Shown: in pieces, positions 28,039 to 50,700 of the stretch | Layout: every line of letters begins with the position of its first letter | How positions within the stretch are numbered: the stretch's first letter is position 1 | Translations under genes and position numbers: made by a program | Assembly: GCA_023212645.1 (NCBI GenBank) | Contig: JALBYC010000044.1 | Location: 1-54,298, forward strand | Length of the DNA stretch: 54,298 nt | Direction of reading: 5' to 3' | Origin: Farysia itapuensis | Lineage: Eukaryota > Basidiomycota > Ustilaginomycetes > Ustilaginales > Ustilaginaceae | Notes under the pieces: generated by a model | What the model saw: only the letters and a program-made list of their open reading frames with translations | Told to the model about the DNA's origin: nothing | Database searches by the model: none

Positions 28039-31000
28039 TTAGTGAGGGAGGGAAATGGCACGCAGTGTAGGATCAAGGCCCATGGCGCGTTTGCGTTGAC
28101 GCAGGACCGAGTCAAAGGTAAACCTGTCTTCCAACCATTCGCCGTTGTTGACCAGCAGCACTTTCTGCCGCTCATGACAGCGTAAATCCGGCAGAAGCTT
28201 GGGGGTGATGAGAAAGTACTGCGATGAATCCGACTGGCAGGTAATGTTGACAATGTGGTTGTGCGCTGCACGTTCGGCCTTGCTGTCCATGCCCTGATTA
28301 ATCTCGTCCACCAGCGTAAACGGCGATCGCGACAACTGCAGCAGCGACATGACGTACATGATTGTACTCAGTGCCTTTTCCCCCCCGGACTGATGGTGAC
28401 CCGACAGCGGCGCCAGCTCCTCGTTGTTTCGGAACTTGACCATGATCTCCAGCTTCCACTTTTCGAAATCGGCGTCTTCCCCAATCCGCAGCTCGCCCGC
28501 CAAGCCCAGGTCGTCAAACGCCTTCGAAAAGCGTTTCGACACTTCAGCCACTACACGACGCAGCTTTGGCTCCCACTTGCCCCGCACTGATGACATCTTG
28601 GCCTGCACATCCGTCTGAGCCTTGGCCAGGTCGGTAATGGTTCGAGTGACGGCTGCAATCTCCTCTTTGCGTCGAGTGTACTGCCGAATCACTTCTGGCT
28701 GCACGCCTTCCGCCAGCTCCAGCTTGGACATTTCTGCGCGCAGCTCGCCCGTACAGCGGTCGAGGTTGAGCACCTCTTCGTCATCCGGATCCAGATCGGC
28801 AACCAGATCGCCAGCTCGATCAATCTTTTCCTGTACCGATTCGCGCAGAATGTCGGCATCTCGACGCGCCGCCTTGGCCTGGCGGTTGGCTGCTTCGCAC
28901 GCTTCCATGAGCGCAGTCTCTGACTCTTCCAGCTCCTTGATCATGTTCTCCAGCATGGCAGACGTTGCGTCCCACTGCCACTTGTGCAGCTGCGCCTGGT
29001 GCTTGCGGTCGCAAAGTTGACTGATCCCCACTACGAGCGCTTGGAGGTCCTGCATCTTTTCGCATCGTGTGGCGGTCAGCGCACGTACGGCCTTCATCTC
29101 GCGTGCGCGTCGCTCTTCCATCAAAGGCTCCTTCTCTAGACCCGCCAGCTCCTTGGTTTTAACTTCAATCATGACCCGATTCGCGTCCCATTGCTTTTGT
29201 GCTCTCGCCATGTCGTCGCGTTCGGCTTTGAGCTCCTTGGCCTGATCCTGCAGCTGCTCGACTTTCTTGAGCACATCTTGCTCCTGCTTCATCAACTGGC
29301 CTGTCTGTGACTCTAGCTCCTGGCGCTTGGCGTACAGCTCTTTGATCTGATCTCCAATGCGCGACTGGGTTGCTCGGTCGACGGATCTGACCAAATTCCG
29401 AGCTGGATTGATCTCTCGCGACAGCGTCTGTCGCAGATCAGAGCCATACCGCGATGTGTTGATGGTAAAGTTCTCCATGCCAATGACGAATCGCTGAAAG
29501 TGGCCCGACTGCTCGATTCGTTCCATATCGACCTGCGTGTTGAGGGAAATGGCGATGCGATGCAGGTTGCTCTGCTTGCACAGATGTACCAGCACATCGA
29601 CTGGTCCGTCGACAAAGTCGATCGCGTAGCCGTCGAAACCAAACGAGCCAAGCTCCTCGCGCGGCACGTTGGGCATCATGCTGTTCATCATGATCCCTTC
29701 CACTTCGGCAATCGTGACACGCAGTCTGAGCTTGTCGAGCAGCTCGCGCGTAAGCAAGTCATAGTCGGCTCGTGTCTGACATACGATTGTCTTGAGCACA
29801 TTCCAGGGTATGCATGACTCTACGGCGCTGGCGTACTGCGTGTTTTTGACCTGGATCTCGAGCACGATTGGGTCGTAGACCGGTCGTCTGAACAGATGCT
29901 GATGATCTCGGATCCAGAGCGTGGCCTTGTGGACCTGGTCATCGGATTGGCGGAGCGCTTCAAACCGTTGTTCGCGTACATTGTCGAGGGAAGCCAGTCT
30001 GGTCCGAAGCGAATGCGTCGACTTTTCAATCGTCTGACTTTGCAAGGAGATCTCGTTCTTCTGCTGGGCCAGGTCGCTCTTTTGCAATTGCAACTGACGC
30101 TCGCGATTGCGGATCTCGGTGAGTTCCTTGTTGAGCGTGCTTGTGTCCTGTGCGATGGGCTTGTCACCCATTTGCGCTTTGCGATCCTGGATTTCGGTGC
30201 GCAAATGTTGCATACGAGTCTTTCGGTTCTGCTCGCGCTTGTTGAGGGCACTGATGGCAGCATGCTTGTCGTCAATCTCTTTGCCCAGCTCCTTGATCCT
30301 TTCTACGAGTTTCTTGCGCTTGCCCTCGTCGCTCTTGTGCGTTGAGTCGAGACGCTGCAGCTCCAATTTGACTTTGCCCGTCTTGTCTTCCAGGTCGGTG
30401 CGCTTCTGCCGCAAAGGCTGGCCGCGCTCGGCAGACTCTCGCAGTTCGCGTCGTGCCTGTTCACGTCGAGCTTTGAGCTGGTCTAGTTCCTTTTTGGCCA
30501 TGTTGTACTTTGCCATTGCGACCATGACGTGCAGCTTTTCGATACGCTGTTCGATCTGTTCGCGCTCTTCGAATCGCTGCACATCGACTTCGAGGGCTTG
30601 GTTGCGTTGCTCGAGATGCGATACGTTCTGACGGTATTCTTTCAGCTTGGCCTCGAGCTGTGTGGCCGTTTTGCCGTACTCGATGAGCGCATCATGCCAT
30701 CGGACAAGTTTTGCACCTCCTGCTGCTTTTTGCGTCTCTACCAGTCGTTTTGCGTCCGTCATTCTGGCGAACTCGGCCACCTTGTCCTGGGGCAAAAAGG
30801 AGCAGAGATTGGCGACGTCGATGTTGTAGTCGCTCACCAGTTCGACGACTTTGCTCTGGGTGCTGGAGCGGCCATCGATGAACCAGTCGCTCTGATTGTT
30901 GCTGGTCGAGATGCTTCTCTTGATGACCCTGTTGGACTTGTTGGGCCAGTTTTGAAGCTCGATTTCGATCCAGGCGTCTGTCTTGCCAGCTTTGACAAAG

Positions 31001-31653
31001 GAGCTGACGGTTTTCGCTCTGCCCAGTACGGCAGGCGAGCCACCGAGGCCGAGGGCAATGGCACAGGCGATGCTGCTCTTTCCCGTTCCGTTTGGCCCGC
31101 AGATCATGTTGAGATAGGGACCGACACGAAAGTCGACGGCGTCGTAGGTGAGAAAGTTGTGGAGCGAGATGCGACGGATTGAGCCGGGCAGGAAGCCGTC
31201 GGCAGAGCGTTGACCGCGCTGCACTTCGCCGACCTGATCCGCAGCGCTGCTTTGTGGTTCTTCCTCAGCCAAAAGCGACTCTTCCACCTCTTGTACAACG
31301 TCGTCTTCGTCGCGTGCTGGTGAAAGCACGGCGGAGTCGACGCGCGCCATGCCGTTCGTCTTCCTCCGCTTGCCTGGCAAGTCATCTTGGCTGTCGTTGA
31401 GCGCGTCGCCGTTGGGCGTAATTTGGCTGCTGGACGCGAGAACTTGCAGATGCGATCGTTTCGGCTGTTGATGGACCAGACCTGGCTTTTGAGGAGAGAT
31501 GCTCTTTGGACGGCGCGGTTCAGCCTTGATGCGACTTGGACCACCAGCCGATACGCTCTGGGACTGAGACATGGGCAGCGTGAATGGGTCCTCGTTCTCG
31601 TCTGGCGTGGGTATTCTTGCAGTGACTCTGCTTCTTTCTAGTTTGACGACCAT
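28039..31653 (-). CDS. SMC5: Structural maintenance of chromosomes protein 5
   Basis: 1204 residues from ATG 31653. The ABC head is split: an N-terminal part with Walker A GPNGTGKSS (about 185-193), and a C-terminal part with the signature QSGGEKALST (about 1087) and Walker B FTLVDEINQGMD (about 1112). Long coiled coils flank a hinge at about 590-750. The N-terminal 150 residues are a disordered extension. The hallmark NFLTYDAVDF and the NQGMD variant distinguish Smc5 from cohesin and condensin SMCs. With Smc6 and Nse subunits, including the SUMO ligase Nse2, it acts in homologous recombination and replication-fork repair. It is intronless. Confidence 0.95.
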   Translation of the reverse strand: MVVKLERSRVTARIPTPDENEDPFTLPMSQSQSVSAGGPSRIKAEPRRPKSISPQKPGLVHQQPKRSHLQVLASSSQITPNGDALNDSQDDLPGKRRKTNGMARVDSAVLSPARDEDDVVQEVEESLLAEEEPQSSAADQVGEVQRGQRSADGFLPGSIRRISLHNFLTYDAVDFRVGPYLNMICGPNGTGKSSIACAIALGLGGSPAVLGRAKTVSSFVKAGKTDAWIEIELQNWPNKSNRVIKRSISTSNNQSDWFIDGRSSTQSKVVELVSDYNIDVANLCSFLPQDKVAEFARMTDAKRLVETQKAAGGAKLVRWHDALIEYGKTATQLEAKLKEYRQNVSHLEQRNQALEVDVQRFEEREQIEQRIEKLHVMVAMAKYNMAKKELDQLKARREQARRELRESAERGQPLRQKRTDLEDKTGKVKLELQRLDSTHKSDEGKRKKLVERIKELGKEIDDKHAAISALNKREQNRKTRMQHLRTEIQDRKAQMGDKPIAQDTSTLNKELTEIRNRERQLQLQKSDLAQQKNEISLQSQTIEKSTHSLRTRLASLDNVREQRFEALRQSDDQVHKATLWIRDHQHLFRRPVYDPIVLEIQVKNTQYASAVESCIPWNVLKTIVCQTRADYDLLTRELLDKLRLRVTIAEVEGIMMNSMMPNVPREELGSFGFDGYAIDFVDGPVDVLVHLCKQSNLHRIAISLNTQVDMERIEQSGHFQRFVIGMENFTINTSRYGSDLRQTLSREINPARNLVRSVDRATQSRIGDQIKELYAKRQELESQTGQLMKQEQDVLKKVEQLQDQAKELKAERDDMARAQKQWDANRVMIEVKTKELAGLEKEPLMEERRAREMKAVRALTATRCEKMQDLQALVVGISQLCDRKHQAQLHKWQWDATSAMLENMIKELEESETALMEACEAANRQAKAARRDADILRESVQEKIDRAGDLVADLDPDDEEVLNLDRCTGELRAEMSKLELAEGVQPEVIRQYTRRKEEIAAVTRTITDLAKAQTDVQAKMSSVRGKWEPKLRRVVAEVSKRFSKAFDDLGLAGELRIGEDADFEKWKLEIMVKFRNNEELAPLSGHHQSGGEKALSTIMYVMSLLQLSRSPFTLVDEINQGMDSKAERAAHNHIVNITCQSDSSQYFLITPKLLPDLRCHERQKVLLVNNGEWLEDRFTFDSVLRQRKRAMGLDPTLRAISLPH

Positions 31654-31888: not shown

Positions 31889-33022
31889 CTACATGAACCG
31901 CCTGGAACCGCTGCCAAAGCGGTCACCAAGAGCATTGGCATCAGCGAGCAGTTTCCCCCTCTTTTTCTCGTCCATCAGTTTCCCGCCTACGCTGAGCGCC
32001 GAATCGCGGTCCCAGATGGTAGGTGCGCCGTTCCGTCCGTTTTGCAGGTCGAGATCTTCCCGTTCTTGACGCGTCAATTTGCGTTCCTTGTCCGGCTTGT
32101 CTGTGCTGTGGCGTTTGCGCTGGCGTCTTCTTTCACGCTCCGAGTCTGCGTCTGCGTCTCTGCGCGATGAGTGAGAGTGACGATGTCGATGGCTTCGGTC
32201 GGGAGAGCGTGAACGGTGCCGCGAGTGTCGTCTTCGCTCAGGACGATCGTCGGAACGGTGTCTGTCCTTTTCCTCTTTGCGCTCCTGTCGCCGCTTTTCA
32301 CGATGCTCCTCGATCAGGCTCTTTTCTTTTCTTTGCGCCTTGACCTGCTCTTCTATGACTTTATCGCGACGGGCCTGGACTTCACGCTCCAGGACGGCGG
32401 CACCTGCTTCCTTCTCTGCCGCTGTACTGCTGATGCCAGCCGCTTGGTCTTGCAGTCTTTGCAGCCGTTGTTGTGGTGTTTCTGTCCATAGACTCGTGTC
32501 GGTGTTTTCTCCCGTAGCGCCACTTCGGGCGGAGACACGCGGTGCAGTTTGCGCGAATCCGCGCGATTTGAGGCTGAGTGGATCGCCAGCTACGCTCTGC
32601 AGCGACGCACTATTGCTCACAGAGGGCGGAAGGAGCATCCAGTCCGGTCGTGAATTGGCAGCTTTCTCAGCAGCTCGGTCTGCTTCCTAAACCACAAAGT
32701 GCATTGACAAAATTCAACGGTCCGCCGTCAGTACCACATCTCTGTTGTTCTGGGAGAGCGGCGGTGAGCTTACCTCTTGTGCTTGTTTGCGCCTAGCTTC
32801 TCGCTCGAGGAAGTCCCGTGCACCTTGACCGACCGCACTGCTGAGGTCTGTGGAAGATGGTAGAGCTGGGCCGACTTGTTGTTCGTCGTCAGTGGAGCTG
32901 CTGCTGTCATTGTCGGACGTCGCTGTTCTGCGGAAGCCAGCTGGGAGAGAAGGGCCTGCTATGACTCTTTGCGCTGACGTGCTGGATGAGCGATGCCGCC
33001 CTGTCGCGGTTTGGCCAGACAT
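31889..33022 (-). CDS. GPALPP/DUF3752 nuclear protein, two exons
   Basis: Complement of join(31889..32686, 32774..33022), 348 residues. Exon 1 starts at ATG 33022 and contains the family's GPSLPAGF and VGPALP motifs. Splicing an 87-nt intron joins it in phase 0 to exon 2, giving ...QAQEEADRAAEKAANSRPDWMLLPP; the DWMLLPP motif is diagnostic of DUF3752/GPALPP1. The C-terminal half is a charged coiled coil with an RS/RH-rich block, then a conserved TIWDRDSAL-like segment and a basic end. The RS character suggests a nuclear, perhaps spliceosome-linked, role. Function in this family is poorly known. It is divergent from a WW/FF splicing factor. Confidence 0.85.
32687..32773 (-). other. Intron of the GPALPP/DUF3752 gene
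   Basis: 87 nt, donor GTAAGC after GAG, branch-like TACTGAC, acceptor TTTAG. Removing it joins the GPALP-containing and DWMLLPP-containing frames in phase 0. Confidence 0.85.
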
Positions 33023-33164
33023 GGTTGAGAGAGCTGTCAAACAGAGCCACGATTCAACCACCCTTTTTTGGGCCGTTTCTTCTCAAAATTCCACTCAAAA
33101 TCCGGGCTGCAATAAAGGTTGCGGAGTCTTCTTTCACCTTTGGACATTTTGCGTGGCAGCTAGC
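33023..33164. promoter_or_regulatory. 142-bp bidirectional promoter of two splicing-related genes
   Basis: The whole spacer between the ATG of the GPALPP gene (-) and the ATG of the WW/FF gene (+). It must contain both start sites. No TATA box was seen. No strong palindromic element was recognised. Confidence 0.6.
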
Positions 33165-35377
33165 ATGGCAGCGGACGGGAGGCGTAGGTCGCTCGCCCCA
33201 GGCTGGACAGAGCACGTGAGTCCAACTGGCAGACCGTACTACTACCACGCAGCTTTGGGTAGGAGCACCTACAAGCGTCCTCATCTCAAACGGGAGAAGC
33301 CAGTGTCCAAGCTGAACGTGCCCGGTACAGACGGCTGGCTCCGCGTACGTACCAACAGGGGCAACACATTCTACTTCCACCCCGAAAGCAGACAGTCAGA
33401 GTGGACAGCGCCGCCTGAGATTGCAGACGCGGTCGAGCAGTTGCACGCTGCAGAAGCACGGCAACAGGCCGAAGCGCAAGCGTCGCTGACACGACAAAGG
33501 GCCGAGCTCAAGCGCAAAGCAGAGCACGGCATCCCCATCACCGAGTTCGAAGCGACCAGTGCAGAAAGCGACAAAAAGGCGCGTCTCGACGAAGACGACG
33601 CGCAGGACGGCCAGAACGATACGCAAGAGGCACACCCTACCGCACCACCAGCTGATGAGGAACAAGACGACGCAGAATGGCAGCGTCAACTAGCAGCAGA
33701 AATGGCAGCTGAAGCCGAATCAGCAGACGAAGATGCAGACGGACCAGAAGAGACACAACAAAGCACACATGCAGCGCCGCCAACACAGGATCTAGAAGCT
33801 CTCAAGGCGGCCTTCTACGCCGATCTGACTGCCCTCAACGGCACTGCCAAGGAAATCAACCCCATGGCGCCATGGGATCTCGAGCTGCCCAAATTCAACC
33901 AACAAGCATCGCTCTCACATCTACCCGCCAAAGAGAGGGAGGAAGCATTCAACCAATGGTGCAAGCTGCGTATTCGCGAGAAGCGAGCTGCCAAAACTGC
34001 CGCCGGACCTTCTCCTTCCACCTCTTCAGCGCAGGAGAGCTACGAGCGTCTTTTGAGAGAAGAAGTCCGATCTACCCGGACAAAGTGGCAAGATTTCCGC
34101 TCAGCGTTCAAACGTGATGCAAGGTTTCGCTATTTTACCTCAGACAAGGAACGGGAGAAGCTGTTTGAATCGCATCTCGTGCGATTGGGTGCAGAGAAGC
34201 GAGAGGCTGCTGAACGAGCATCCGAAGCCTTCTCCCAACTCTTGTCCGATACCATGCCGGGCCGGTTTCGCGACAAGGTAGCGGCTGCTGTCAAAGCGGG
34301 CAAAGAGGAAAAGGAGGCTGCAGCTGGCGTGTGGCTCGAGGCGAAACAGACACCTGGCTTAATCCAAGACGAACGATACGATCAAGTGGGCAGCTCCACC
34401 CGCAGGCTGGAGCTGTTTCAGCTGTGGGCTCGAGGCGAAAAGCGAGTAGAACGCACGCCACCCAAGCCAGATGTAGACGAAACAAAGCCAGCACAACCCA
34501 TGTCGAAACACAATGCGACCCAAAAGGCGTTGCGAGAACGGGAGGAAAAAGTGCGACTGGAGCGCGAGAGGATGATGCGACAGAATAGGGCAGCCTTCGG
34601 ACAAGCAACGCGGCAAGACAGCAGGCTGACATTTCAACAGCTTGTCGTTGACAGCATTCGAGATGCACAGATGGACAAGGCGACAGCTATGCGACACATG
34701 TCGAGGGATGCCCGCTTTGACGCTCCGGGACTAAGCGATGCAGACAGACTAGGTTTGCTTGACGAACACATGGCGCGACTTTACCAGAAGCAGCAGTCGA
34801 GACTGGACCGCATCTTTTCTCGTCATGCACGTGGTCTCGACGCACATCAAGACGACGTTCTCGCTTTAACGATGCAAGACGAAGAGCTGAGTCACGGCGC
34901 ATTGCGGTACTTTCGCGAGAATGTAGAGGCGATGGAGAGGGAATACCAGCGTTGGGACCGAGAGCGTCAGACTCAGGCTCAGCAAGACTTTCTGCAGATG
35001 CTGCGCGAAAGTGCCTTTGTCGACTTTTGGGGCCGCTTAAAGAATTCTGCCTCAACCGCAGACAAGGCTCAAGGGGAGGACAGTGACGACGAGAACGGTG
35101 GTGCACTGCTCGACATGGCCGCCAAGGTGGACCTGAACGAGATCCAATCCATTCTCCGAGTACGTGTGTATGCAACGCAGAACCCTGACGATGCTGTAAC
35201 TGACTTCGCTTTTTTTTTCTTCTCAGGGCGATGCACGCTTCAAAGCATTCTCGCACAAACCACACTTGCGAGAAGACTGGATCCGTGTAAGTGCTGCGCT
35301 CAAGAGTGTGTGAGAGAGAGAGAGAAGGCTCAGGCTGACAATGTATATAGCAACATCTTTCGAGTCTGGCCAATTGA
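33165..35377 (+). CDS. WW- and FF-domain splicing/transcription factor (TCERG1/Dre4-like), three exons
   Basis: join(33165..35159, 35227..35286, 35351..35377), 693 residues. Two WW domains lie at about 11-40 and 56-86; the first has Tyr in place of the second Trp (STYKRP). FF domains follow at about 285-342, 345-415, 485-540 and a last one from about 607 to the end. The last FF domain is completed only after splicing: ...IQSILR then GDARFKAFSHKPHLREDWIR then QHLSSLAN stop. Proteins of this type bridge proline-rich splicing factors and the phosphorylated RNA polymerase II tail. Human TCERG1, fission-yeast Dre4 and budding-yeast Urn1 are the closest in layout; Prp40 is the alternative. An in-frame extension upstream to 32850 has no ATG-supported coding character and overlaps the divergent gene. 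Confidence 0.88.
35160..35226 (+). other. Intron 1 of the WW/FF gene
   Basis: 67 nt, donor GTACGT, branch-like AACTGAC, a long T-run and acceptor TCTCAG. Removal links SILR to GDARFKAF, restoring an FF-domain sequence. Confidence 0.85.
35287..35350 (+). other. Intron 2 of the WW/FF gene
   Basis: 64 nt, donor GTAAGT, branch-like GCTGAC, acceptor ATATAG. It leaves a 60-nt middle exon and a 27-nt terminal coding exon. If it is retained, the protein ends eight codons later with a different tail. Confidence 0.7.
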
Positions 35378-35454
35378 AATTGCACGTTACTTTACTTCAC
35401 GTGGCTGATCGATGATCGGATTATTATTATTATTTGAAGAAGAAAAAAAAGTGT

Positions 35455-35828: not shown

Positions 35829-38492
35829 ATGTCGGCCCAGCATGGCGAGAACGGTGTCACTGCCTCTTCTGTCTCGCTTTCCGAGTCGACTCCGTCCATG
35901 ATTCCTTCGCAAGCGACAACGACCGATTCGTCTCTGCATTCTCCCTCGGAAGCAAGTCCGAGCGTGGTCCACAAAGCTGTCGATGCGAATGCCGACGATG
36001 ATGCTGTGATTCAGGCGCACATTGAACGCAAGCGCATCGAGCATGAACAGCAGCGCGCCGAACAACGCAAAGCCTTTGAACAGCAAATGGCTCTCCTCGA
36101 ACAACAGCAGCGCGAAGAGGAACGAACTCTCCTCCGACAGCAGAGCGCCAAGGACAACAACGACGCTGTTGCCGTATCAGCTCCTGTAACTCCCCCTAGT
36201 CAGGCCGCACCTACTGCCGGCTCTCTTGCAGGTCAAGCTGTTCCCACATCTCTTGCCGACAAGGCACACCTCTACCGATCCATGCCCACATCCCGCAGAC
36301 ACTCCAGAGAAATCAGGACCGACACGGCCGACGAGCTGTCGGACGCGGTCAAGAACATCACCCTCGATTCTAAACCCTCCACCGGCTCAGTCGAAAAACC
36401 CAGCGGCGGCGGCGGCAAATCTGGTCCTGCGCAAAGTGACGGCTATACTCCGGCCTTTCTCTTTGACGATGAGCTGGACAATGAAGACTCGGCGTTTGTG
36501 AAAAAGTACAACCTCAACCGCGATGATGACAAGTTCCCCATCCTGGTTCAGCGCGACAGCTTTCCGGATGTCTTGTCCACCACGGCGGGGGCCAAGGCTG
36601 GCGATTCGGCCGAGTCTACCAGTCGACGTGGATCTCGTCAGTGGACTCAGTTGGGAGCTAGCGATGCTGCTCTGGCCGCTGCTGCCGCTGCCGTCAATCG
36701 CAAGCCAGACCTGGGCCGCGATGAGTCTCTCTTGGCACACAAGACTTCCCCCCCGCACAGTGTCTCGGGTACCAGTACGCCTTTCCCAGCCGGCGCTCGT
36801 TCCGGCACTCTGCCATTGCCATCACCATCTCCGCGACTCCCTCAAGGTACGGGCTCGGCTCACAACGAAGCAGCTCGCGCAGGTACGGGCTCTCGCTTCG
36901 TCAACACAGGCGGCCTCAAAGCTGGAGCTCCTCGCGACGCCAGTTTCCCCCACTTCAACTTGAGCGCTTTTACTGCCTCGGGCGCTGAAAGTCCGAGTCG
37001 ATTTGGCTCCTACTCACCGAGCAAGTTTGACTCGGCCGAAGCGGGACGCACCAGCCGACCTGCTTCGGGTCTGTTTGACGCATTCAATCCAACAGCTGGC
37101 GCCAACACACCTGGTTCGGTGTACCCAACAGACAAGTACTCGATCGGTATGGCTCCACCCATGGCAGGCAAACCGGCGCGCAAAGCTGAGCTCGACGTCG
37201 CAACTCGTCTCGAGGATCTGCAGGGGGAAATCTTCGCCCTCTGCAAGGACCAGCATGGATGTCGCTTCTTGCAGAAGAAGCTCGAAGAGGGAAGCACGGC
37301 GCATCGAGACATGATTTTTGCCGAGACATTCCCGCATTTTGCCGAGCTGATGACGGATCCGTTTGGCAACTATCTGTGTCAAAAGATGCTCGAGTACTGT
37401 ACGGACGAGCAGCGTAACTTGATTGTCGAGTCGGTGGCGTCAGAATTGGTCACCATCTCGCTCAACATGCATGGCACGCGGGCGGTGCAGAAGATGATTG
37501 ACTTTCTCTCCACCTCGCGCCAGATTCACTCGATCATTGTTGCGCTCTCGATGAACGTGGTGACGCTGATCAAGGATCTGAACGGCAATCATGTGATTCA
37601 GAAATGTCTTAACCGCTTAGGCGCCGAGGACAACCAGTTTATCTACAACGCCGTGGCGGCGCACTGCGTCGAGGTTGCGACGCATCGACATGGATGCTGT
37701 GTGTTGCAGCGGTGTATTGACCATGCCTCTGAGGGTCAGCGGGTACAGCTGGTGGCCGAGATTACCTACAATGCGCTCTCGTTGGTGCAGGATGCGTTTG
37801 GCAACTACGTCGTGCAGTACGTCCTCGACCTCAACCATCCGCGCTTTACCGACGCCGTCGTGCGCCAGTTTGTGGGCAACGTCTGTCTGCTCTCGGTGCA
37901 GAAATTCAGTTCCAACGTGATGGAAAAGTGCATCCGCGTGTCGGAGCCGGGTGTGCGCAAGCAGCTGGTGGAGGAGCTGCTCAACCGGACACGGCTGGAG
38001 AAGCTGCTGCGCGATTCTTTTGCCAACTACGTAGTGCAGACCAGTCTGGACTATGCGGATCCAGTGCAGCGCATGCGACTGGTGGAGTGCATTCGACCCA
38101 TTCTGCCCGTCATTCGTAACACGCCGTACGGCAAGCGGATCCAGAGCAAGTTGCAGCGGGATAACCTCGACTTTGGACCGCCCAACGGGGTAGTGCCCTA
38201 CTCGGTGATGCAGGCAGCACACCAGCAGCAGATGCACGCCATGAGCAGCAGCAACAGCGGCCCTGGCTACTACGCACAAAGACCCATGCATCCTCACCAC
38301 CACCACCACCCCGCCATGTACGCCGATGCAAACCACCGACCCACCCACCCCTCTCCCCGTCCACCCATGCTGCTGCAAAACCAACGTCCTCCCCTCCCCC
38401 CACCACCACCCAACAACAACACCGCCACCACCACGTACAACTACCCCAAACCACCACCTGCATCTTACAACCGCGAGTTTCACAACTACTAG
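35829..38492 (+). CDS. PUF4: Pumilio/PUF RNA-binding protein, Puf4 type
   Basis: 887 residues. The PUF domain spans about 450-778 with eight helical repeats. Their RNA-reading helices are visible in order: DQHGCRFLQ, DPFGNYLCQ, NMHGTRAVQ, DLNGNHVIQ, HRHGCCVLQ, DAFGNYVVQ, QKFSSNVME, DSFANYVVQ. The set matches budding-yeast Puf4 more closely than Puf3 or metazoan Pumilio. Such proteins bind UGUA-containing 3' UTRs and promote mRNA decay or repression, with ribosome-biogenesis mRNAs being classic Puf4 targets. The 450-residue N-terminus is disordered and has a Gln/Glu-rich coiled coil at about 65-105. The C-terminal 100 residues are His-, Pro- and Asn-rich low complexity, suitable for granule formation. 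Confidence 0.92.
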   Translation: MSAQHGENGVTASSVSLSESTPSMIPSQATTTDSSLHSPSEASPSVVHKAVDANADDDAVIQAHIERKRIEHEQQRAEQRKAFEQQMALLEQQQREEERTLLRQQSAKDNNDAVAVSAPVTPPSQAAPTAGSLAGQAVPTSLADKAHLYRSMPTSRRHSREIRTDTADELSDAVKNITLDSKPSTGSVEKPSGGGGKSGPAQSDGYTPAFLFDDELDNEDSAFVKKYNLNRDDDKFPILVQRDSFPDVLSTTAGAKAGDSAESTSRRGSRQWTQLGASDAALAAAAAAVNRKPDLGRDESLLAHKTSPPHSVSGTSTPFPAGARSGTLPLPSPSPRLPQGTGSAHNEAARAGTGSRFVNTGGLKAGAPRDASFPHFNLSAFTASGAESPSRFGSYSPSKFDSAEAGRTSRPASGLFDAFNPTAGANTPGSVYPTDKYSIGMAPPMAGKPARKAELDVATRLEDLQGEIFALCKDQHGCRFLQKKLEEGSTAHRDMIFAETFPHFAELMTDPFGNYLCQKMLEYCTDEQRNLIVESVASELVTISLNMHGTRAVQKMIDFLSTSRQIHSIIVALSMNVVTLIKDLNGNHVIQKCLNRLGAEDNQFIYNAVAAHCVEVATHRHGCCVLQRCIDHASEGQRVQLVAEITYNALSLVQDAFGNYVVQYVLDLNHPRFTDAVVRQFVGNVCLLSVQKFSSNVMEKCIRVSEPGVRKQLVEELLNRTRLEKLLRDSFANYVVQTSLDYADPVQRMRLVECIRPILPVIRNTPYGKRIQSKLQRDNLDFGPPNGVVPYSVMQAAHQQQMHAMSSSNSGPGYYAQRPMHPHHHHHPAMYADANHRPTHPSPRPPMLLQNQRPPLPPPPPNNNTATTTYNYPKPPPASYNREFHNY

Positions 38493-38744
38493 CTCCACCC
38501 TTGTCCGCGGCGTAATTCTCACCGATTGTTTGTTTCTAGAGTTGCGTGCTGTGCGTGTGTGCACGTGAGCCTTTTTCAATTTGTAATCACAATATCCATC
38601 AAGATTGCCGGAATTTGGGATCGCGTGCAGCTGGGTGCGGTGGTGGTGGTGGTGGGAGGGTGTGTTCTTGCAACCATCCTTTCGTTTGCCCTTTTTCGGC
38701 CTTTTCCTCTTCCACACCCGCGCGCAGTGGGGAGAAGAGAGAAG

Positions 38745-40064
38745 ATGTCTCGTCCGGGGAGGATGCGGCATCCTTTACCACAAGTGCCGACTGCAGCTGT
38801 TCGATCGCACGCCGCTGTTGGCGGAGGGCATCGGGCCACTTCGACATCACCACGGTTTTACCAGCAGGGAACGAGTTGTTCCTCGTCGCATCCTTCGCCC
38901 GCATCGACGGTGTCGAGCGTGGGCGGAGGCAGCAGTAGCAGTAGCAGTACCTCGAGTCAGGCCAGTCTCACCACTCCGCCTGACTTGCTGCTTAGCGGCA
39001 ATATCTTGGGTCATGCCGGGCTCAAGCTTAGTCCACAGCATCATCCAGCGCCGGTGAATTCCTGGAATGGCATGCTCCTTCGTCCTCCCGGTGCACCTAC
39101 TCACCGTCACCTGCGCACAGACGAGATTCACCGACGAAAGCAGTTGTTGCGCACCTTACCGCCTATGGGGGTATGGGAGTTGCCTTCAAGTCCACCGGCC
39201 AGTCCCAAAAGGCGGACCACCGCCGCGGGTGCGATAGCGGAACGACCGGTGAAACGGCCGAGAACGACGAGCCAAGACAGCACCAGCGCCAACGCCAACG
39301 CCAACGATGGTGGGGGAGAGGTGGTGGCGGTGAGGTATCGTAGTGCGGCGCGCGAGTTGAAGCATTCCGCCGATGCGCGTGCTTCCGTACACTCGACCTC
39401 GCAACCCTCCTACCGTGCAGCACGACCGACGCAACTCGCTGCACTGGAACAACTGGATGCAGTCCTCCTCTTCTGCTTCGCCTTCTGGCTCGACGATACC
39501 GCCGCCCCCGCCGCGGATGGGCGGTGCATTGCCAAAAATTGGATCTCCCTCTTTGGCCTCCTACGCTACGCCACCCATGCCCAGACAGACCTCGCCAACC
39601 CAGCCCTCCTGGGTCTCTGTCGTCTGATTGAATCCGTCGTACTCCGCAAACTACACGCACACGACGCTTCCCTCCTTCTTCTTGGCCATCCGGACTCTGG
39701 TGGTGAGGAAGTCGCTCGCCTCGCTCGTCAACTGTCGGCTGATCTGTCCCGTTCGGATCGTCTCCTCGCCCAATCACGGCTCACACTCACCCTCGCAGCC
39801 CTGGCAAACGACTACCCGGACACCTTCCAAGCCGCCCTTACCCCCACTTCGACCAACGAGGTGGCTGGAGCAGCAACGGTGCAAATGTGCCGCCGAAACC
39901 TCTCCTTTCCCCTCGACGCAACGTCGTCCATCCCCCAGGTGGTTGCGTTTGGCAGGTCCATGGTCGAAGAACATGCGCGCAGAAACCACGTCGCCGCCTT
40001 CACCCTCGTCGACCCCACTCAACCACCACCACCACCACCAGCCCCCCTCGCCGCTCCTCAATAA
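38745..40064 (+). CDS. Protein with AF4/FMR2 C-terminal-homology-like domain
   Basis: 439 residues from ATG 38745; the frame extends upstream to 38526 only through a TTG, so that extension is dropped. The first 190 residues are Ser/Pro/His/Gly-rich and basic. From about residue 196 an ordered helical domain begins: AARELKHSADA, then LEQLDAVLLFCFAFWLD, then NWISLFGLLRYATH, then LLGLCRLIESVVLRKL. This order and spacing resembles the C-terminal homology domain of human AFF1/AFF4 (KKLKHNADA, YLDAVVSFIECG, ETVDLIKYTMKLK, LTVLCLRCESLLYLRLFKL). That domain dimerises AFF proteins in super elongation complexes. The likeness is by eye and from memory; identity is low. The C-terminus ends in a poly-Pro stretch. 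The alternative is an unrelated helical protein. Confidence 0.6.
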   Translation: MSRPGRMRHPLPQVPTAAVRSHAAVGGGHRATSTSPRFYQQGTSCSSSHPSPASTVSSVGGGSSSSSSTSSQASLTTPPDLLLSGNILGHAGLKLSPQHHPAPVNSWNGMLLRPPGAPTHRHLRTDEIHRRKQLLRTLPPMGVWELPSSPPASPKRRTTAAGAIAERPVKRPRTTSQDSTSANANANDGGGEVVAVRYRSAARELKHSADARASVHSTSQPSYRAARPTQLAALEQLDAVLLFCFAFWLDDTAAPAADGRCIAKNWISLFGLLRYATHAQTDLANPALLGLCRLIESVVLRKLHAHDASLLLLGHPDSGGEEVARLARQLSADLSRSDRLLAQSRLTLTLAALANDYPDTFQAALTPTSTNEVAGAATVQMCRRNLSFPLDATSSIPQVVAFGRSMVEEHARRNHVAAFTLVDPTQPPPPPPAPLAAPQ

Positions 40065-40242: not shown

Positions 40243-43071
40243 TTACTTTTTCGCCTTGGCCTTGGCTTTGCCCTTGGCAGCGGCCGCCGAGGTTTTGGGT
40301 TTCTTGACCAGCTTGTCCTTAGTCAAGTCGTCATCCGCCTTGTCGTCTTCCTCCTCTTCGTCTTCGGCGGGGAGCGTTTCCTCTTCCACCACATCCTCCA
40401 AGTCTGGCGCAGCTTCTTTGGCCACCTTGCTCATCTTGCCGCCTGCAAAGTCGCTCGCCTTGTTAAAGGCGATTGGATGTGAGCCGGCGTTGTACTTGCG
40501 CGTGAAGCCAGCCTTGACAGCACTCGGAATGCTCTTGCCCAAATACTCGGCATTGTTGGGCTCGATCCCCAACTCGAGAATGGCTTCTCGATCTTCTACG
40601 CCCAGATAGTAGTCGTCCATCAGGCCTATCACCTCTTCAACGCCCTCTGCGCCGTTCTTGACCATGGGCTGGATCAGCAACGGCCACATGCTGGGCAAAT
40701 AATGCTGGCGTAGGTCGTGTCGGGATCCAGAGCATACCAGTCGCATCTTGGCCTGCAGGTCCACCACTGCGCGCGACAAACGTTGCTGCTTCGAGTTCTG
40801 CCCAAGCCAGCTGGGAAACGATGGGAATCCGCCCTCCGTGCCGCCATAAATAAAGGAACATGGCTTCACTGTCGAAACAATCCCATGCAGAGGCATCAGA
40901 GACCAGTGCATTTCACTGCCGTGAATCATGCGGTCCACAATGTCTCCATCGGAAATGCTCTCGGAAGCTTTCTTGAGCAGTTCCAGATGCTTGTACGTCT
41001 TGAGCGTATCGTTGGGCTCGCGCGAGGCACGTACAGGTCTCGCTTTGATGTAGTTTTCAGCCACCATGAGCGGTACGATGGCATGGTCCTGAAAGTAGAG
41101 GTCCGTCTTGTCGTTGAGTGTCTTGCGCGAAGTATGGCTAAACATGTAGGGCGAGCTGAGCTCGGAATACAGCGAAAAGGGGGTATGCATGCCTGGCTTG
41201 GAGTTCTCAGCGCCCAAGGCCTGTGACTCGTCAAAGTCCATGCTGGACTTGGACAGTTTCCACGTGCTGAGCATATTAATGACTGAGCGAATGTCGCCTT
41301 GCGATGCCTCGATGAGCTGTCCCATAACCTCTCCCTGCATCTTGATCTTTTCCCTAAAAGCGATCGACATCATGCGAGATCGGACTTGCGCAGCGTCTGG
41401 CTTGCGGAAACTGAGATTGTAGGTGGTGTGGTCAAAGGGACGCATCTTTTGGTTGCGTCGGTCGTTGCAAATACAGATAATGGGTACTTTGGTCTTCTTG
41501 ATCAGTGCGTTGATTGCGCCAACGCCTCCACGGTCGCCTCCCGACATACCGTCAACCTCGTCCATGATGAGAACAGTGCGATCGTGAATGCGAACGCCGT
41601 CAGGTCCGACGCCAGTGTCCATCTTGCCGCCCGAATACCAGCTGTCGAGTGATTTGTTGTTGATAGTGTCGAGCAGCATGGACTCAATGAGTTTCTTGCT
41701 TCGAGCGTCGCTGGCGTTGAATTCGAGGGGAGAGTAGCCTTCCATCTTGGCTACGAGATGGGCAGAAGTAGTTTTGCCAATTCCTGGCGGTCCAGAGATG
41801 AGGACGGCGCGATATACATTCATGCCGGTGGGGCCGGGTTTCTTAAAGTTGCTCTTGTACGAGCTGGGCCAGGCTTTGAGCCATCCGGCCAGTTTCTCGA
41901 CAGCGGCCTTGTTGCCGACCAAGTCCTTCATCTGCTTGGGAGCGTATTTGGTAGTCCAAAGCATACTGTCGTACGTGGCTGGGTCGACCTTGACATCTTT
42001 GGGTGGCGCTGCCATACTCTTGGCGACTTCCTGGATCTTTTTCTCTTCCTCCTTGATCTTTTGCTTTGTCTTTTCGTCGAGAGCGCCGGCGCCTCTGGTA
42101 CGGATGAGGTCCAGGAAGCCGTCCTCGTCCAAAGTGGCAATCTTGTTCTTTTGTATGGACTCGAGTTTCTTGGGGCCAGCACCTTCTCCAAGGATCACAT
42201 AGGAAGTTTTGGAGGAGGGCGCACCCGTGATTCGAGCTCCATATCGTTTGCCAAGGTCCGTCGCCTCCTCACGGCTGATGGAAGACAGCTCGCCGGTAAA
42301 GACGAGGGTCAATCCAGCAAGACAGTTTGGCTGACCTCTGGGAATCTCTTTCGACCCAGGTGCAGATGGTCCAGCGGCACGTTTGGCAGCAATCTCTTTC
42401 CAAGAGGCCTTCTTGTCAGAGTCATCTGCTGGTGGTGGGGCGTCTGTCTTGGCTTGCTGCTTGGCTACAGATTTAGCAGGAGCGGCAGGCTTCGGCTTTG
42501 GCTCGATAAATTCATCGTCGTCATCATCTTGTATCTCTATGGCTGTTTTGGGAGCTGGTTTGGAAGCAGCAGGTTTTGGCTCAGGCTTGACCTTTGTGCC
42601 GGCAGCCACCTTTTTCGGCGCTGGCTCTGGTACAAAGTCATCCTCGTCGTCATCTTCATCTTCCTTGTAAGTCTTGCGCTTTACGGCAGACTTTCTTGGA
42701 CTCTTTTTGGCAGTCGATGTCGGGGCAGGAGCGGGTTCATCGTCTGAGTCATCAATCACCATGGGCGTACGACGGGAACCAGAAGGAGCCTGTTTCGCTG
42801 ACGCAAAGTATTTTGACTTGGAAGGCGATGTATCGGCACTCTCCGTCTTCTGAACAGGACAAGACATGATTGGATGAGGATTCAGGATGATGTGCGGAAT
42901 GGAAAGAGGATCATGACTTACCTTTGCACTTCCGTTGGTGAGTGATTTGTTGGGGCTGGGTGTCTCTGCCTGTGATGAAGAAGCCGATGATGCAGTTTTA
43001 GCGCCTCCAAAGAAGTTAGCCAAAGAAGCCTGTCCCTTTGGCAGGGGTGCTGACTCTTTCTTTGGCGGCAT
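40243..43071 (-). CDS. RFC1: Replication factor C large subunit, with one in-frame intron
   Basis: Complement of join(40243..42849, 42922..43071), 918 residues. The N-terminus has a PCNA-interacting (PIP) box QASLANFF at about 14-21. A BRCT domain follows at about 219-300 (GLTLVFTGELSSI, then TSYVILGEGAG). The AAA+ clamp-loader module has Walker A GPPGIGKTT (about 401-409) and Walker B LIMDEVDGM (about 478). The RFC1-specific C-terminal domain ends in acidic and then Lys/Ala-rich tails. It loads PCNA on primer-template junctions with Rfc2-5. A 72-nt intron with perfect borders interrupts codons after residue 50; because it has no stop and is a multiple of three, the uninterrupted frame also reads through (942 residues). 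It is divergent from RGP1 with 194 bp between starts. Confidence 0.93.
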   Translation of the reverse strand: MPPKKESAPLPKGQASLANFFGGAKTASSASSSQAETPSPNKSLTNGSAKVSHDPLSIPHIILNPHPIMSCPVQKTESADTSPSKSKYFASAKQAPSGSRRTPMVIDDSDDEPAPAPTSTAKKSPRKSAVKRKTYKEDEDDDEDDFVPEPAPKKVAAGTKVKPEPKPAASKPAPKTAIEIQDDDDDEFIEPKPKPAAPAKSVAKQQAKTDAPPPADDSDKKASWKEIAAKRAAGPSAPGSKEIPRGQPNCLAGLTLVFTGELSSISREEATDLGKRYGARITGAPSSKTSYVILGEGAGPKKLESIQKNKIATLDEDGFLDLIRTRGAGALDEKTKQKIKEEEKKIQEVAKSMAAPPKDVKVDPATYDSMLWTTKYAPKQMKDLVGNKAAVEKLAGWLKAWPSSYKSNFKKPGPTGMNVYRAVLISGPPGIGKTTSAHLVAKMEGYSPLEFNASDARSKKLIESMLLDTINNKSLDSWYSGGKMDTGVGPDGVRIHDRTVLIMDEVDGMSGGDRGGVGAINALIKKTKVPIICICNDRRNQKMRPFDHTTYNLSFRKPDAAQVRSRMMSIAFREKIKMQGEVMGQLIEASQGDIRSVINMLSTWKLSKSSMDFDESQALGAENSKPGMHTPFSLYSELSSPYMFSHTSRKTLNDKTDLYFQDHAIVPLMVAENYIKARPVRASREPNDTLKTYKHLELLKKASESISDGDIVDRMIHGSEMHWSLMPLHGIVSTVKPCSFIYGGTEGGFPSFPSWLGQNSKQQRLSRAVVDLQAKMRLVCSGSRHDLRQHYLPSMWPLLIQPMVKNGAEGVEEVIGLMDDYYLGVEDREAILELGIEPNNAEYLGKSIPSAVKAGFTRKYNAGSHPIAFNKASDFAGGKMSKVAKEAAPDLEDVVEEETLPAEDEEEEDDKADDDLTKDKLVKKPKTSAAAAKGKAKAKAKK
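42850..42921 (-). other. 72-nt in-frame intron of RFC1
   Basis: Donor GTAAGT after AAG and acceptor TGTTCAG. Its length is 3n with no stop codon, so retention would insert 24 residues (VSHDPLSIPHI..., non-charged) into a Lys/Ser/Glu-rich disordered region. The inserted residues are unlike their surroundings, which supports splicing. Confidence 0.8.
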
Positions 43072-43265: not shown

Positions 43266-45659
43266 ATGGCGCATCACTCGGCCTTGCGGGTGACGATCAA
43301 GCCGCATCAGTCCTCCTTCTTTGCCGGAGAAGACTTTGTCTGCGATATCACTTTCACCAATACCCATCCTGCTGCAGCAAGCACTTCCCGCCTAGCACAG
43401 AACATCCCAAAGCCCAAATCGCATGGCAAATCGCAAAGCGTCGATGTTCGCTCACTCGGTCTACAGAACGGTCATGCCGACGCAAGCCAGGCCGACAAGG
43501 CAAAGAGTGTGCTGCGGGAGCTCAGTGGAGAGGTGCTGCCCACCCGCAAGCGTCTGATCGGGAAAGGAGAGCCGCCTTCATCATCCCAGTCCTTCATGCA
43601 TCCATGGGCCTTGCAGCCACATCAGCAGAATACAGCTACTCCACCGCGTCATGCCAAGTCGGCCTCCATTGCTGTTAGTAAGCCAGGAACATCGTTGGGC
43701 TTGGGACACCCCTCCGCTCCGCCAAACTCGCAAACACCTGATGCAACTGCAGCATCGCCCACCCCGCCTTCCAGGATATCCTCTTTGCCTACCCCAGCAC
43801 GACGTGCGCCGTCTGCCTCCATATCCTCCGACCATCCTCATTCGCGCAAGAAATCCATGGCTCAGATACAGGCGCAAGACTTGACTGAAGCCTTTGAACT
43901 CGACCGCCATCCCGACTTTCACACCTCCTCAGCCTCATCTTCGACCCCTACCACACCGGGGATCATGGAAAAAGCATCCGAGTTCTACAAGCAAGGCCGT
44001 AACGACACAATGGAGAGCGTGTTCCGAGACTCGGTCAACGATTGGTCAGCTAAGAGATCAAGCGGTCTCAGTCCAATCTATCCTACCTCGGACTCGCTGC
44101 CCATCGACTCCGAAAAGATCCTCTGGTCCTTTGTTCAGATCGGTGGTACAGTCGAGATTGACGAGAGTCTGATTAAGCCGGGCGACTTTGAAAATCTCAA
44201 GCGAAGACTGGCGTATGGTGATGTCTCGGGTGCCAGTCCCTCACCTGGCGCATCTCGGACCATTGGCGGTGGCGATCTGGGACATGCTCAAGGCTCGGCC
44301 GATCGAAGCTCAGGTTGGGCATCCTATCTACGCGGTCCCTTTAGCGGCAGTAGCTCGAGCACTCGACACTTGCGCACCGGATCGACTCTGCAGGATTCTC
44401 AGGAGCGCACATTGCAGAGTCGAGCTGTGCCCACTTTCGCCACTCTGCCCAGCATTCTCGCCGTCGACCTGACGCTATCACCTGGCGAAAGCAAGACGTA
44501 CACCTTCAAGATCCATCTCCCCGTTGACCTGCCGCCTTCATACCACGGCAAAGCCATTCGGTTCAACTACAGCCTCACCCTGGGCACCAACCGACTGGAT
44601 ACCCAGGCAGGCACAGCACGTACCCAGAAAAGTCGTCTGATTCAAATCCCCATCCGTATCTACAATCACGTAGGCGCGGCTGGCTTTCGCCCCTTTTACG
44701 ACCTGATGAATCCAGTGATCTTGACGCGAGAGGAGGCCATTGTGCAGGTCCAGCACTCCTCGGGTGTCGGGTGGTCTGGCGACGGTACGGGTCGGAACGT
44801 GTCGGGCAAGCAACCGTCGGTGCAGACGCAGAGACTGAAACGGACCGAGCTGGAACAGTATGCCAAGAAGCTTCTCACCACATCCGTGCAAGTTGCAGAG
44901 ACGGAAAAGAGTGGCATGTCAACTTCGACGTCGCATTCATCGCTGGAGACGTGCAAGGCGGCTGTCGAGGTCCTGACGCGCACGTCAGGTAAAGTGTCGT
45001 ACGACATCTCCAAGGACGGCAAAGTGGCCGCTGTGCTGACGCTTGTCAAGTCCAAGTACCGACTGGGTGATACGGTGGTGGGTGTGATCAGCATTAACGA
45101 AAAGTCGTCGATGGCGCGAATTGCGCGCTTCGGCGTCACACTCGAGACGTATGAAGAGGTGCAGCCTAGTATTGCCACCTTGCCGGTTGGTAGAATGTCG
45201 CGTGCGACCAAGGTCATTCACGCCGAACACCACGAGAGTGTCTTGGACAAAGGTCGGGCCAGCTTCAGTCTTCCCATCCCTAGCGGTGCTGCACCCGAGT
45301 TTGTCACCAGTGGAGTCAAATTAATCTGGCTAGTTCGACTCAGCTTCCTCACAATCTCGAGCACCACACAAGCACAGAGTTCAACAGCAGCTGCGCTGAA
45401 AGGTGCCAAACTGCCTCCTCCCCCGCACCTGGTCCCTGGTCCGACAGACGGCTACTCGCGCTACCACATCAGTCTGACCGCACTGCCAAGTCTCGCAGGC
45501 TCAGCTTCTTCTGCCCTCGACGCTGGTTCTGCTTCCACCTTGGCTACGTTGGGCTACGCCCCGGAAACCAAGCTGGAAACCGTCGAATGCGCCGTCCCCG
45601 TCACCGTGCTTCCCACCAACACCGGCTTTAAAGTCCGCGACGCCGAGTTTTACGCCTAA
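43266..45659 (+). CDS. RGP1: Rgp1-family subunit of the Ypt6/Rab6 exchange factor
   Basis: 797 residues. The N-terminus (LRVTIKPHQSSFFAGEDFVCDITFTNTHP) is the arrestin-like opening strand region of the Rgp1 family. After about 250 disordered residues, the Rgp1 core resumes: ILWSFVQIGGTVEIDESLI, then LTLSPGESKTYTFKIHLPVDLPPSYHGKAIRFNYSL, then KDGKVAAVLTLVKSKYRLGDTVVGVI, and a C-terminal arrestin-like domain. With Ric1 it forms the guanine-nucleotide exchange factor for Ypt6 (Rab6) on Golgi membranes. It is longer than budding-yeast Rgp1 because of Ser/Pro-rich inserts. The start ATG 43266 is the first in frame after an upstream stop-rich region. Confidence 0.85.
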   Translation: MAHHSALRVTIKPHQSSFFAGEDFVCDITFTNTHPAAASTSRLAQNIPKPKSHGKSQSVDVRSLGLQNGHADASQADKAKSVLRELSGEVLPTRKRLIGKGEPPSSSQSFMHPWALQPHQQNTATPPRHAKSASIAVSKPGTSLGLGHPSAPPNSQTPDATAASPTPPSRISSLPTPARRAPSASISSDHPHSRKKSMAQIQAQDLTEAFELDRHPDFHTSSASSSTPTTPGIMEKASEFYKQGRNDTMESVFRDSVNDWSAKRSSGLSPIYPTSDSLPIDSEKILWSFVQIGGTVEIDESLIKPGDFENLKRRLAYGDVSGASPSPGASRTIGGGDLGHAQGSADRSSGWASYLRGPFSGSSSSTRHLRTGSTLQDSQERTLQSRAVPTFATLPSILAVDLTLSPGESKTYTFKIHLPVDLPPSYHGKAIRFNYSLTLGTNRLDTQAGTARTQKSRLIQIPIRIYNHVGAAGFRPFYDLMNPVILTREEAIVQVQHSSGVGWSGDGTGRNVSGKQPSVQTQRLKRTELEQYAKKLLTTSVQVAETEKSGMSTSTSHSSLETCKAAVEVLTRTSGKVSYDISKDGKVAAVLTLVKSKYRLGDTVVGVISINEKSSMARIARFGVTLETYEEVQPSIATLPVGRMSRATKVIHAEHHESVLDKGRASFSLPIPSGAAPEFVTSGVKLIWLVRLSFLTISSTTQAQSSTAAALKGAKLPPPPHLVPGPTDGYSRYHISLTALPSLAGSASSALDAGSASTLATLGYAPETKLETVECAVPVTVLPTNTGFKVRDAEFYA

Positions 45660-47737: not shown

Positions 47738-50700
47738 TTAGGCATCAGAGTCAGAGTCAGAGGCACTCTCGTCAGAAGAGCTCTCAGAGTGAACCAGGTC
47801 GTCGTGACCACGCGCAGAGACACTCGCGTCTGGGTTGCCAAACTGCTCCAGCTGCTGTTGCAGACGAGCAATCCGTTCCGCCTCTTCGCCTTCGTCTAGG
47901 TTCTTTTTCTTGATTCCGCCCGTGCCGCGTTTGCGTCCATCGAGCGGTGCCGACTTGCCGTTGCCCTTTTGAGGTACCGCAACCGGCTTCTTGGGTCGCA
48001 CGACGTACTTGTACAGCTTGTACAGCGTCCTTGGAGAAAGTTCGTCAATGTCGAGCTCAATCTCTTCTTCGTCGTTCTGGTTGGGTGGTTTGTCCTCGTT
48101 GATGATCCGGATCGCTCCGTCCAGACGCTCTTCCGACAGCTCGGTAATCTTGGCGGCCAGCTCCTCTTTCTGTTCGTAGGTCACGTTTCGGATGTCTTCG
48201 TCGCTGTCCTTTCGACTTGACACTTTCTTGGAGCTGGATGGTGAGGCTTGCTGTGCTGGCTGTGGCTTCTTTTTGGGTGCCGTCTTGGGTTTCTTGGGTG
48301 GCAGGTAGTCTGCAGTAGCTCCAGCGCCCGGGCTGCCAGTCGACTTTGTCTTGCTGCTGCTGCTCTTCTTCTTCAGACCGGCATCGCTCGCCTTGCGCTT
48401 CATGCCACCTTTCTTGGCTTTTTTGCTCCCAGAGCTGGCATAGCTTTCCTGCAACGAAGCGAGCATCGCCTTGGTGTTGGCAATCAGAGCTGCACTCTGA
48501 GGGGTCTTGTTACCCTCTAGCATGGCCAGTGTACCAGACAGTTGTGAGATCTGTTCTTGAAGCGTGGCCAAGAACTCGGGGCTCACTCCGTCGTCATCCT
48601 CATCGTCGTCTTCATCCACGTCGCTCTCCTCGTAGTCAGCAACCATGGGCGGAGGCACCGGCTTTCGCAGCATCTTTTCTTCGTACACCTTCTTTAGCTT
48701 GTCGCCCATAATATATACGTCGGAACCCGGCGGGTTAAAGGTAAAGCAGTTTTGAATCAGGAGCTGCATGTCGGCATCAAAGTCGTCTGCATCCGCGTAT
48801 TTGCCAGCCCGGATGTTTTTCTGAATCTGCTTGAGCGAAGTCGGTTTCTTGATCATCTCAAAGTACACCGGCGCCCAGTCAAAGTCCATGGAGGGAATGT
48901 CGTAAAACACCCAGGCGACTGCTTCGTGCGTAGGCTTGAGCAGATCGTCAATCACCCGCGTGCAAAAGCGCAACTCTTCCCCTGCCACTTTGGCCCAGTA
49001 AGCCTCTTCGCGTGCTGTCATCTTGCCTCCCTTCTTGGCTGCTTTGCGCTTCGCAGCTTTGCGCATCTCCGAAGTAGAGCTCTGCGGCTCGTTTGCATAG
49101 GGCAAGTCTTTGGGCGGTGGTGGATGAATCTCTCGCTTTGGTCGACCACCAACATCGGACTCTGAGCGGCGAATCGTCGGCACGGGATTGGATGGTCGAC
49201 GAACACGTGCTTCGACCACTTCGGCAGGCTGCGACGCCGGCGGTACATCCTTCATGTACTTGTCGAACGCTGCCTCCAGCACCCGCGCGTTCTCTGTATA
49301 CGGACTCTCTGGACCGTTGAAAGTAGCGCAGTTGACAAACACCTGGCGCACGTCTGCGTCAAATTCCGAGATCTGTTTGTAGACGTCTTGCGAAGGGTCG
49401 AGGTTAAACTGCGATGCCTGCTTCGCCTTGTCACCTGGCTTGGAATTCGGCTTGAGTACCAAAGCGGTGAGGGCCAGCTTGATGTCGATCGTACCAAAGT
49501 CCATTGGCTTGGTGATGATCTGGTGATACTGGGGAATACCGAGAGCTACAGCATCTACGGGCTTGAGGAATGCTAGTGCCTCACGACGACCCTTGAGAGA
49601 CTTGAGTGTGCTCTGTGCAAACTTGAGCTGAGCAGCGTTGATGTCCATCGGTCCTTCGTACGGTTGAGCTGGTTCTGCTCGCGCCTGCTCCTGGAATTGA
49701 ATTGCTGAGGGCGTCTGACTATCTTCCGCCTTGGCGCGGATCTCGCTCACCAATTCTGCGGGGTGTGCACCGGCATTGGACAAAGGCTCAGCCGTTGGAG
49801 GAACCACAGGAGCAGCCGACGTTGGAGCCACATCCGACATGACAACGTCCTCAGCAACGGCGTTCTCGGCGGCGGGTACGGGTGCAACATCCCCAGGAGC
49901 GACAGGATCATTTGCAATGGGAGCAGATGATAGTGGGGCGGAAGCGACTGGCATTTCACTCTCCCCAGACCTTGACGCTGCCAATGAGCTTTCCACAGGT
50001 GCAGATGGCACTGGGACTGAGCTTTCTGCTGGAGCAGAAGGCGCCGCAGGCGAGCTTTCCACGGGTGCAGAAGGTGCCGAAATTGAGCTTTTATACGATG
50101 CAGTGGTGGGCGCTGGAGCTGAGCTGTCTGCAGAAGCATTCAACACTGGCTGTGCAATCTCTTCGGAGGCATACGATGCTGTCGGCACGGAAGCTGAGCT
50201 GTCTGCAGAAGCATTCAACACTGGCTGTGCAATATCTTCAGAGGCATACGATGCTGTCGGTACGGGAGCTGAGTTCTCCAGCGAAGCACTTGCCACGGGC
50301 TGCGCGAGCTCTTCAGAAGCGGGGAGAGCTGGCATTGCAGGTTCCAGAGCCGGCGCCGGGTGCATAGCTTCTGCGGCTGCCGAAGGTGCTGAGGGTGCGT
50401 TATCGAGTGCTGGCGCAGGGTCTTGACTTCCGCTGACGACACTGGCAGAGCTAACGAGGCTTTCAGCCTCAGGCTTGGCGACAGGCGTAGCAGCAAGATC
50501 GTTGACAGGGCTCTGCTGCGTAGGATCAGAGCTCAGAAAGGTGGAGCTCTGAGAGACCAATGACGGTTCAGTGTTGATAGAGCTTTCGCTTGCAATGACG
50601 GTCGGTTCCTGGGATGCGACGGCAGGTGCTGCCTTTTCGGGCAACGGCGCAGAAATGGATGACACTGTCTCGGTCGGGGGAGCTGTCTCTGCGGGGCCAT

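Follow-up and report, generated by a model that had tools for sequence, protein, structure and literature searches.

AFF4 is the human scaffold protein of a complex which accelerates RNA polymerase II. Scaffolds of this type were known before from animals and reportedly also occur in fission yeast, where Ebp1 is said to belong to a rudimentary super elongation complex. That Ebp1 is an Ell-binding protein with a Pfam domain of its own is already known. The gene described here lies in a 54,298-nucleotide stretch of the smut fungus Farysia itapuensis (assembly GCA_023212645.1, contig JALBYC010000044.1, forward strand), which is called the window in the following. We consider it likely that this gene encodes an Ebp1/AFF4-CHD family protein of smut fungi (CHD: C-terminal homology domain), that the C-terminal half of this protein is AFF4-CHD-like and that it most likely acts as a small scaffold within a reduced form of the super elongation complex. 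It is thus a divergent, new addition to a known kind, and probably the smut fungi's counterpart of fission-yeast Ebp1, by which the AFF4-type scaffold would be extended to the Basidiomycota. Among the matches listed from the open-access literature none dealt with basidiomycete AFF4 relatives or with Ebp1 as an Ell-binding protein, and the passages located in PMC11113081 and PMC12652325 did not concern yeast Ebp1.

Gene and protein family

The gene was read as follows:

38745..40064, + strand: protein-coding open reading frame of 439 amino acids, for which an intron-free reading suffices; probable distant member of the Ebp1/AFF4-CHD family

Its 439 codons run from an ATG at 38745 to a stop codon ending at 40064, and the frame stays open 5′ of this ATG up to a TTG at 38526. 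The ATG at 38745 is likely the start codon, because N-terminally complete homologues open with the same M..RP..R.RHPLP..P pattern.

Three protein searches, each scoring about 8,000 candidates, yielded 20 homologues (16 in the first, P0017 in the second and P0018-P0020 in the third). Solely members of the family of the window protein were found, and none of the 20 rows carried a Pfam label. For eight of them the source is named, namely Sporisorium reilianum, S. graminicola, Kalmanozyma brasiliensis (two records), Ustilago sp., Pseudozyma hubeiensis, Thecaphora frezii and one chicory record. The names given by the sources are hypothetical, uncharacterised and, once, chloride channel. The latter concerns the P. 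hubeiensis homologue P0015 ('chloride channel protein 3'); the Pfam scan of the family contained no chloride-channel family at all, and the label is probably a misannotation. The chicory record, P0002, is filed under Cichorium endivia as L1887_58617, with a longest contig of 53,264 bases, and its presence in a plant assembly is most likely due to fungal contamination.

An alignment of the window protein with 19 homologues (A3, 20 rows; P0010 was left out) contains 32 invariant positions, every one of them within the C-terminal domain. The N-terminal half scores none because several records are devoid of the N-terminal part. The best-conserved ten-residue blocks are 231-250, 261-310, 331-340 and 401-410, together with one block of the N-terminal island described below (101-110). 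Such conservation argues strongly against a spurious or unrelated open reading frame with a chance motif resemblance, a reading that could draw on the shortness of the blocks by which the gene was first noticed; with the fold and shuffle tests described below also pointing away from it, we regard it as extremely improbable.

Fold and sequence relationship to AFF4 and Ebp1

The relationship to AFF4 is based on two features of the C-terminal half:

39312..39995, + strand: helical domain with a predicted AFF4 CHD fold, residues 190-417 (predicted structure; Ebp1_C match at residues 234-303)
39345..39464, + strand: LKHSADA ... LEQLDAV block, residues 201-240, the AFF4-like stretch that is detectable by sequence (HHalign, shuffle test)

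The predicted structure is helical from residue 190 to 413, and the mean predicted local distance difference test score (pLDDT) is at least 88 in 16 of the 23 ten-residue blocks of residues 191-420, with the lowest values at 371-380 (47) and 381-390 (63). The fold was compared in two models, one of the window protein and one of a second family member. In both, the three entries of the AFF4 CHD (also called THD; Protein Data Bank (PDB) 6r80, 6k7p and 6kn5) ranked above unrelated helical proteins and outscored the row below them by about 7 Z units; for the window protein the identity to them was 17-19%. The AFF4-CHD-like fold proposed in the initial annotation is hence borne out by the predicted structures, in which the C-terminal half takes on an arrangement like that of the AFF4 CHD. 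TPR-like folds are common, and an unrelated helical-repeat domain could have come to resemble the AFF4 CHD by convergence. The distance in Z units in both models is difficult to reconcile with this idea, as are the LKHxADA...LDAV sequence block, which falls in the same place, and the naming of Ebp1_C by an independent library (Pfam), so that convergence appears very unlikely.

All four blocks from the initial annotation were located in the window protein (AARELKHSADA at 201-211, LEQLDAVLLFCFAFWLD at 234-250, LLRYATH at 272-278 and LLGLCRLIESVVLRKL at 288-303), and the AFF4 strings which it had named (LKHNADA, YLDAVVSFIECG, LIKYTMKLK and LCLRCESLLYLRLFKL) are all found, in the same order, in the AFF4 chains of the PDB. 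When a fungal domain profile, for which 18 of the 20 rows supplied were retained, was aligned with the AFF4 CHD sequence by HHalign, a score of 26.3 over 29 columns was obtained (P-value 0.0041). None of 300 AFF4 shuffles reached this score, their mean being 13.0 and their highest value 22.7. The reversed AFF4 sequence scored 12.2. The signal is confined to the 29 columns of the LKHxADA...LDAV block, the global mode gave an alignment without meaning, and the remaining three blocks have no statistical support of their own; beyond the LKHxADA block the assignment of the whole domain is supported by the fold comparison.

A Pfam scan of the window protein returned at E ≤ 10 one single family out of 24,736, Ebp1_C (PF21204; E 3.2e-4, 20.5 bits, with a curated cut-off of 26 bits). 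The domain of the window protein alone matched it with an E-value of 1e-4 (22.2 bits), the domain piece of P0014 with 0.019 (14.7 bits) and P0019 with 2.8e-5 (24.0 bits, profile positions 79-253 of 255). These scans covered 17 whole proteins (E ≤ 1; the window protein alone matched), nine domain pieces and P0017-P0020. In all three matching members, out of 21 in total, profile position 79 falls on the same leucine of the EQLDAV block. Like the C-terminal domain of Ebp1, to which three divergent members thus show an in-register profile similarity, the fungal domain is placed C-terminally in its protein. The comparison with Ebp1 runs through the Pfam profile, and Ell binding by the fungal protein is a candidate function. 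Further Pfam rows in single members (TetR_C_36, YedD, Zn_finger_prot and PhaC_N) were judged to be due to chance.

Several results weigh against this assignment. Foldseek returned for neither model a match at E 0.001 or better, the HHalign probability towards AFF4 is just 8%, and every Ebp1_C score lies under the cut-off of the family. Moreover, 18 of the 21 family proteins were not matched by Ebp1_C in the Pfam scans; eight of these were scanned as whole proteins only (long disorder), seven also as domain pieces, and the other three are P0017, P0018 and P0020. The AFF4_CHD family (PF18876), to which AFF4 as a control was matched with 411 bits, was matched at E ≤ 10 neither by the window protein nor by its domain piece, nor was it in the scans of other family members. 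PDB sequence searches at E ≤ 10 did not list AFF4, neither with the window protein (best E 0.71, a designed protein) nor with the family profile A1 (best E 0.98, chance rows only). The proteins also differ in size, since AFF4 ends near residue 1163 and the fungal protein has 439 amino acids. The profile similarity that the initial annotation had anticipated is therefore present towards Ebp1_C, at E-values of 2.8e-5 to 0.019 and with scores below the cut-off, and not towards AFF4_CHD. Taken by itself, the sequence is suggestive of common descent with the AFF4 CHD; in combination with the predicted fold, common descent becomes highly probable.

Dimer contacts

PMC7026398 describes that the AFF4 CHD dimerises via α4, α5 and α6, with F1014 and Y1096 at the centre of two hydrophobic cores, and places 38 residues between E1006 and a disordered loop starting at Gly1045. 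A gap-free anchor of fungal E296 on AFF4 E1006, set by sequence and not by coordinates, was used for mapping. It places F1014 at His304, with a histidine in 18 of 20 rows, which is a further point against the preferred reading. Y1096 falls near Ala332 in an uncertain register. In the model of the window protein the helix stops 17 residues past E296 (at residue 313), and in the Thecaphora model 22 residues past the equivalent glutamate. With 17 and 22 residues after the glutamate versus 38 in AFF4, α5 of the handle seems to be shortened or absent in the fungal protein. One feature stands out at the position of the next helix:

39741..39764, + strand: charged, near-invariant DLSRSDRL, residues 333-340, in a helix seemingly equal to AFF4 α6 (register to AFF4 tentative)

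D333, L334, R336, D338 and L340 are identical in 20 of 20 rows. Where the AFF4 CHD has hydrophobic dimer cores, this α6-like segment of the fungal protein is charged (DLxRSDRL), the register being tentative. Homodimerisation in the manner of AFF4, the function which the initial annotation had given for this domain, accordingly finds no support at the level of residues, and the pattern suggests that any self-association would be unlike that of AFF4. A more specific idea, which we hold to be less likely than not, is that smut fungi possess a miniature AFF4 of about 400-670 amino acids, which has kept the CHD fold and lost α5, in which the place of the hydrophobic core is taken by a charged and invariant surface (DLxRSDRL/HxHD) and which scaffolds ELL-EAF as a monomer or via another contact. 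If this were true, the scaffold would seem to have arisen before its dimerisation.

N-terminal half and potential partners

The N-terminal half is of low complexity and mostly predicted to be disordered (pLDDT below 50 at residues 1-100 and 153-185, among others). Two features were recognized in it:

39054..39215, + strand: conserved N-terminal island, residues 104-157, VNSWNG ... EIxRRxxLLxxLP ... LPSPPxSP, then KRR
39207..39263, + strand: basic clusters KRR...KRPR, residues 155-173, putative nuclear localisation signal

The basic clusters, recognized by their sequence, are a possible nuclear localisation signal, which would fit a protein located in the nucleus. The island contains a single short predicted helix (residues 125-137, block pLDDT 77 and 83). 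Of the 20 rows of A3, 18 contain the island. The records of P0017 and P0019 are without the N-terminal part, and P0010, which stands outside A3, stops after VNSWN. According to PMC5290273, AFF4 binds ELL with a 50-residue segment consisting of a helix followed by an elbow (ELLBow, PDB 5jw9). The fungal N-terminal half likewise has a short helix and then a proline-rich stretch, but the likeness finds no support in the sequence. An equivalence of island and ELLBow, suggested to the eye by the hydrophobic spacing of LLxxL versus ILxxM and the prolines that follow, failed a shuffle test, in which 134 out of 300 shuffled versions of the ELLBow peptide did as well against the island; this likewise counts against the preferred reading.

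The genome (13.7 Mb, 53 contigs) was searched for genes of potential partners. It contains an EAF gene (489 amino acids from the first ATG; PF09816, E 2.1e-14, 54.2 bits, cut-off 26). Unfavorably for the proposed function, no ELL was found in this genome search with PF10390, by a method that does not prove absence. A candidate from PF07303 (E 0.057, below the cut-off) was rejected, its frame being that of an SMC-type coiled-coil ATPase; PF07303 also gave matches below the cut-off in five of 14 control prokaryote genomes. A search of the same kind with PF21204 found nothing and missed even the sub-threshold gene of the window itself, from which it follows that it is insensitive at such divergence and that the non-detection of ELL says little. 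Of the two partners whose presence the initial annotation had considered decisive, EAF is present, and ELL was not detected by this insensitive kind of search.

These observations can also be explained by a true CHD homologue which in smut fungi was retooled for another nuclear or RNA-related complex and does not serve ELL-EAF. Dimer-core residues are seemingly not kept, nor is a portion of the handle, the island has no demonstrable similarity to the ELL-binding peptide, and ELL was not found. Other uses of the fold are conceivable, because the AFF4 CHD is said to bind RNA better than DNA (stated in PMC7026398, after another paper). Since the genome has retained EAF and the closest profile belongs to a protein that binds Ell, we consider such a retooling unlikely, yet clearly more probable than convergence.

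In the preferred reading as a small elongation scaffold, the N-terminal island would bind a partner, with ELL as a candidate, and the CHD would self-associate or dock another subunit. As an outcome, ELL-EAF would be kept at elongating RNA polymerase II. An AFF4-CHD-like and Ebp1-like protein, as the initial annotation had proposed, is supported by the results; its role as a scaffold is what we infer from them. If this reading is right, a reduced elongation complex may predate the split of ascomycetes and basidiomycetes, and the minimal parts of the elongation complex would be open to study in one small protein.

Genomic neighborhood

Within the window, 18 other long open reading frames were scanned against Pfam, five of which had no match at E ≤ 1e-4:

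9764-12169, - strand: 801 amino acids
12219-13277, + strand: 352 amino acids
16479-20201, - strand: 1240 amino acids
22973-24103, + strand: 376 amino acids
51164-53344, + strand: 726 amino acids

The identified genes around the open reading frame include both of its immediate neighbors:

28039-31653, - strand: SMC-type ATPase
32850-35408, + strand: WW/FF-domain protein
35829-38492, + strand: Pumilio (PUF) RNA-binding protein, immediate neighbor (Pfam scan)
40243-43071, - strand: replication factor C large subunit (RFC1), immediate neighbor (Pfam scan)
43266-45659, + strand: Rgp1 homologue
47738-50755, - strand: BET protein (Pfam scan: two stretches of bromodomain plus an extra-terminal domain), at a distance of about 8 kb

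With the BET protein another transcription regulator is located near the open reading frame.
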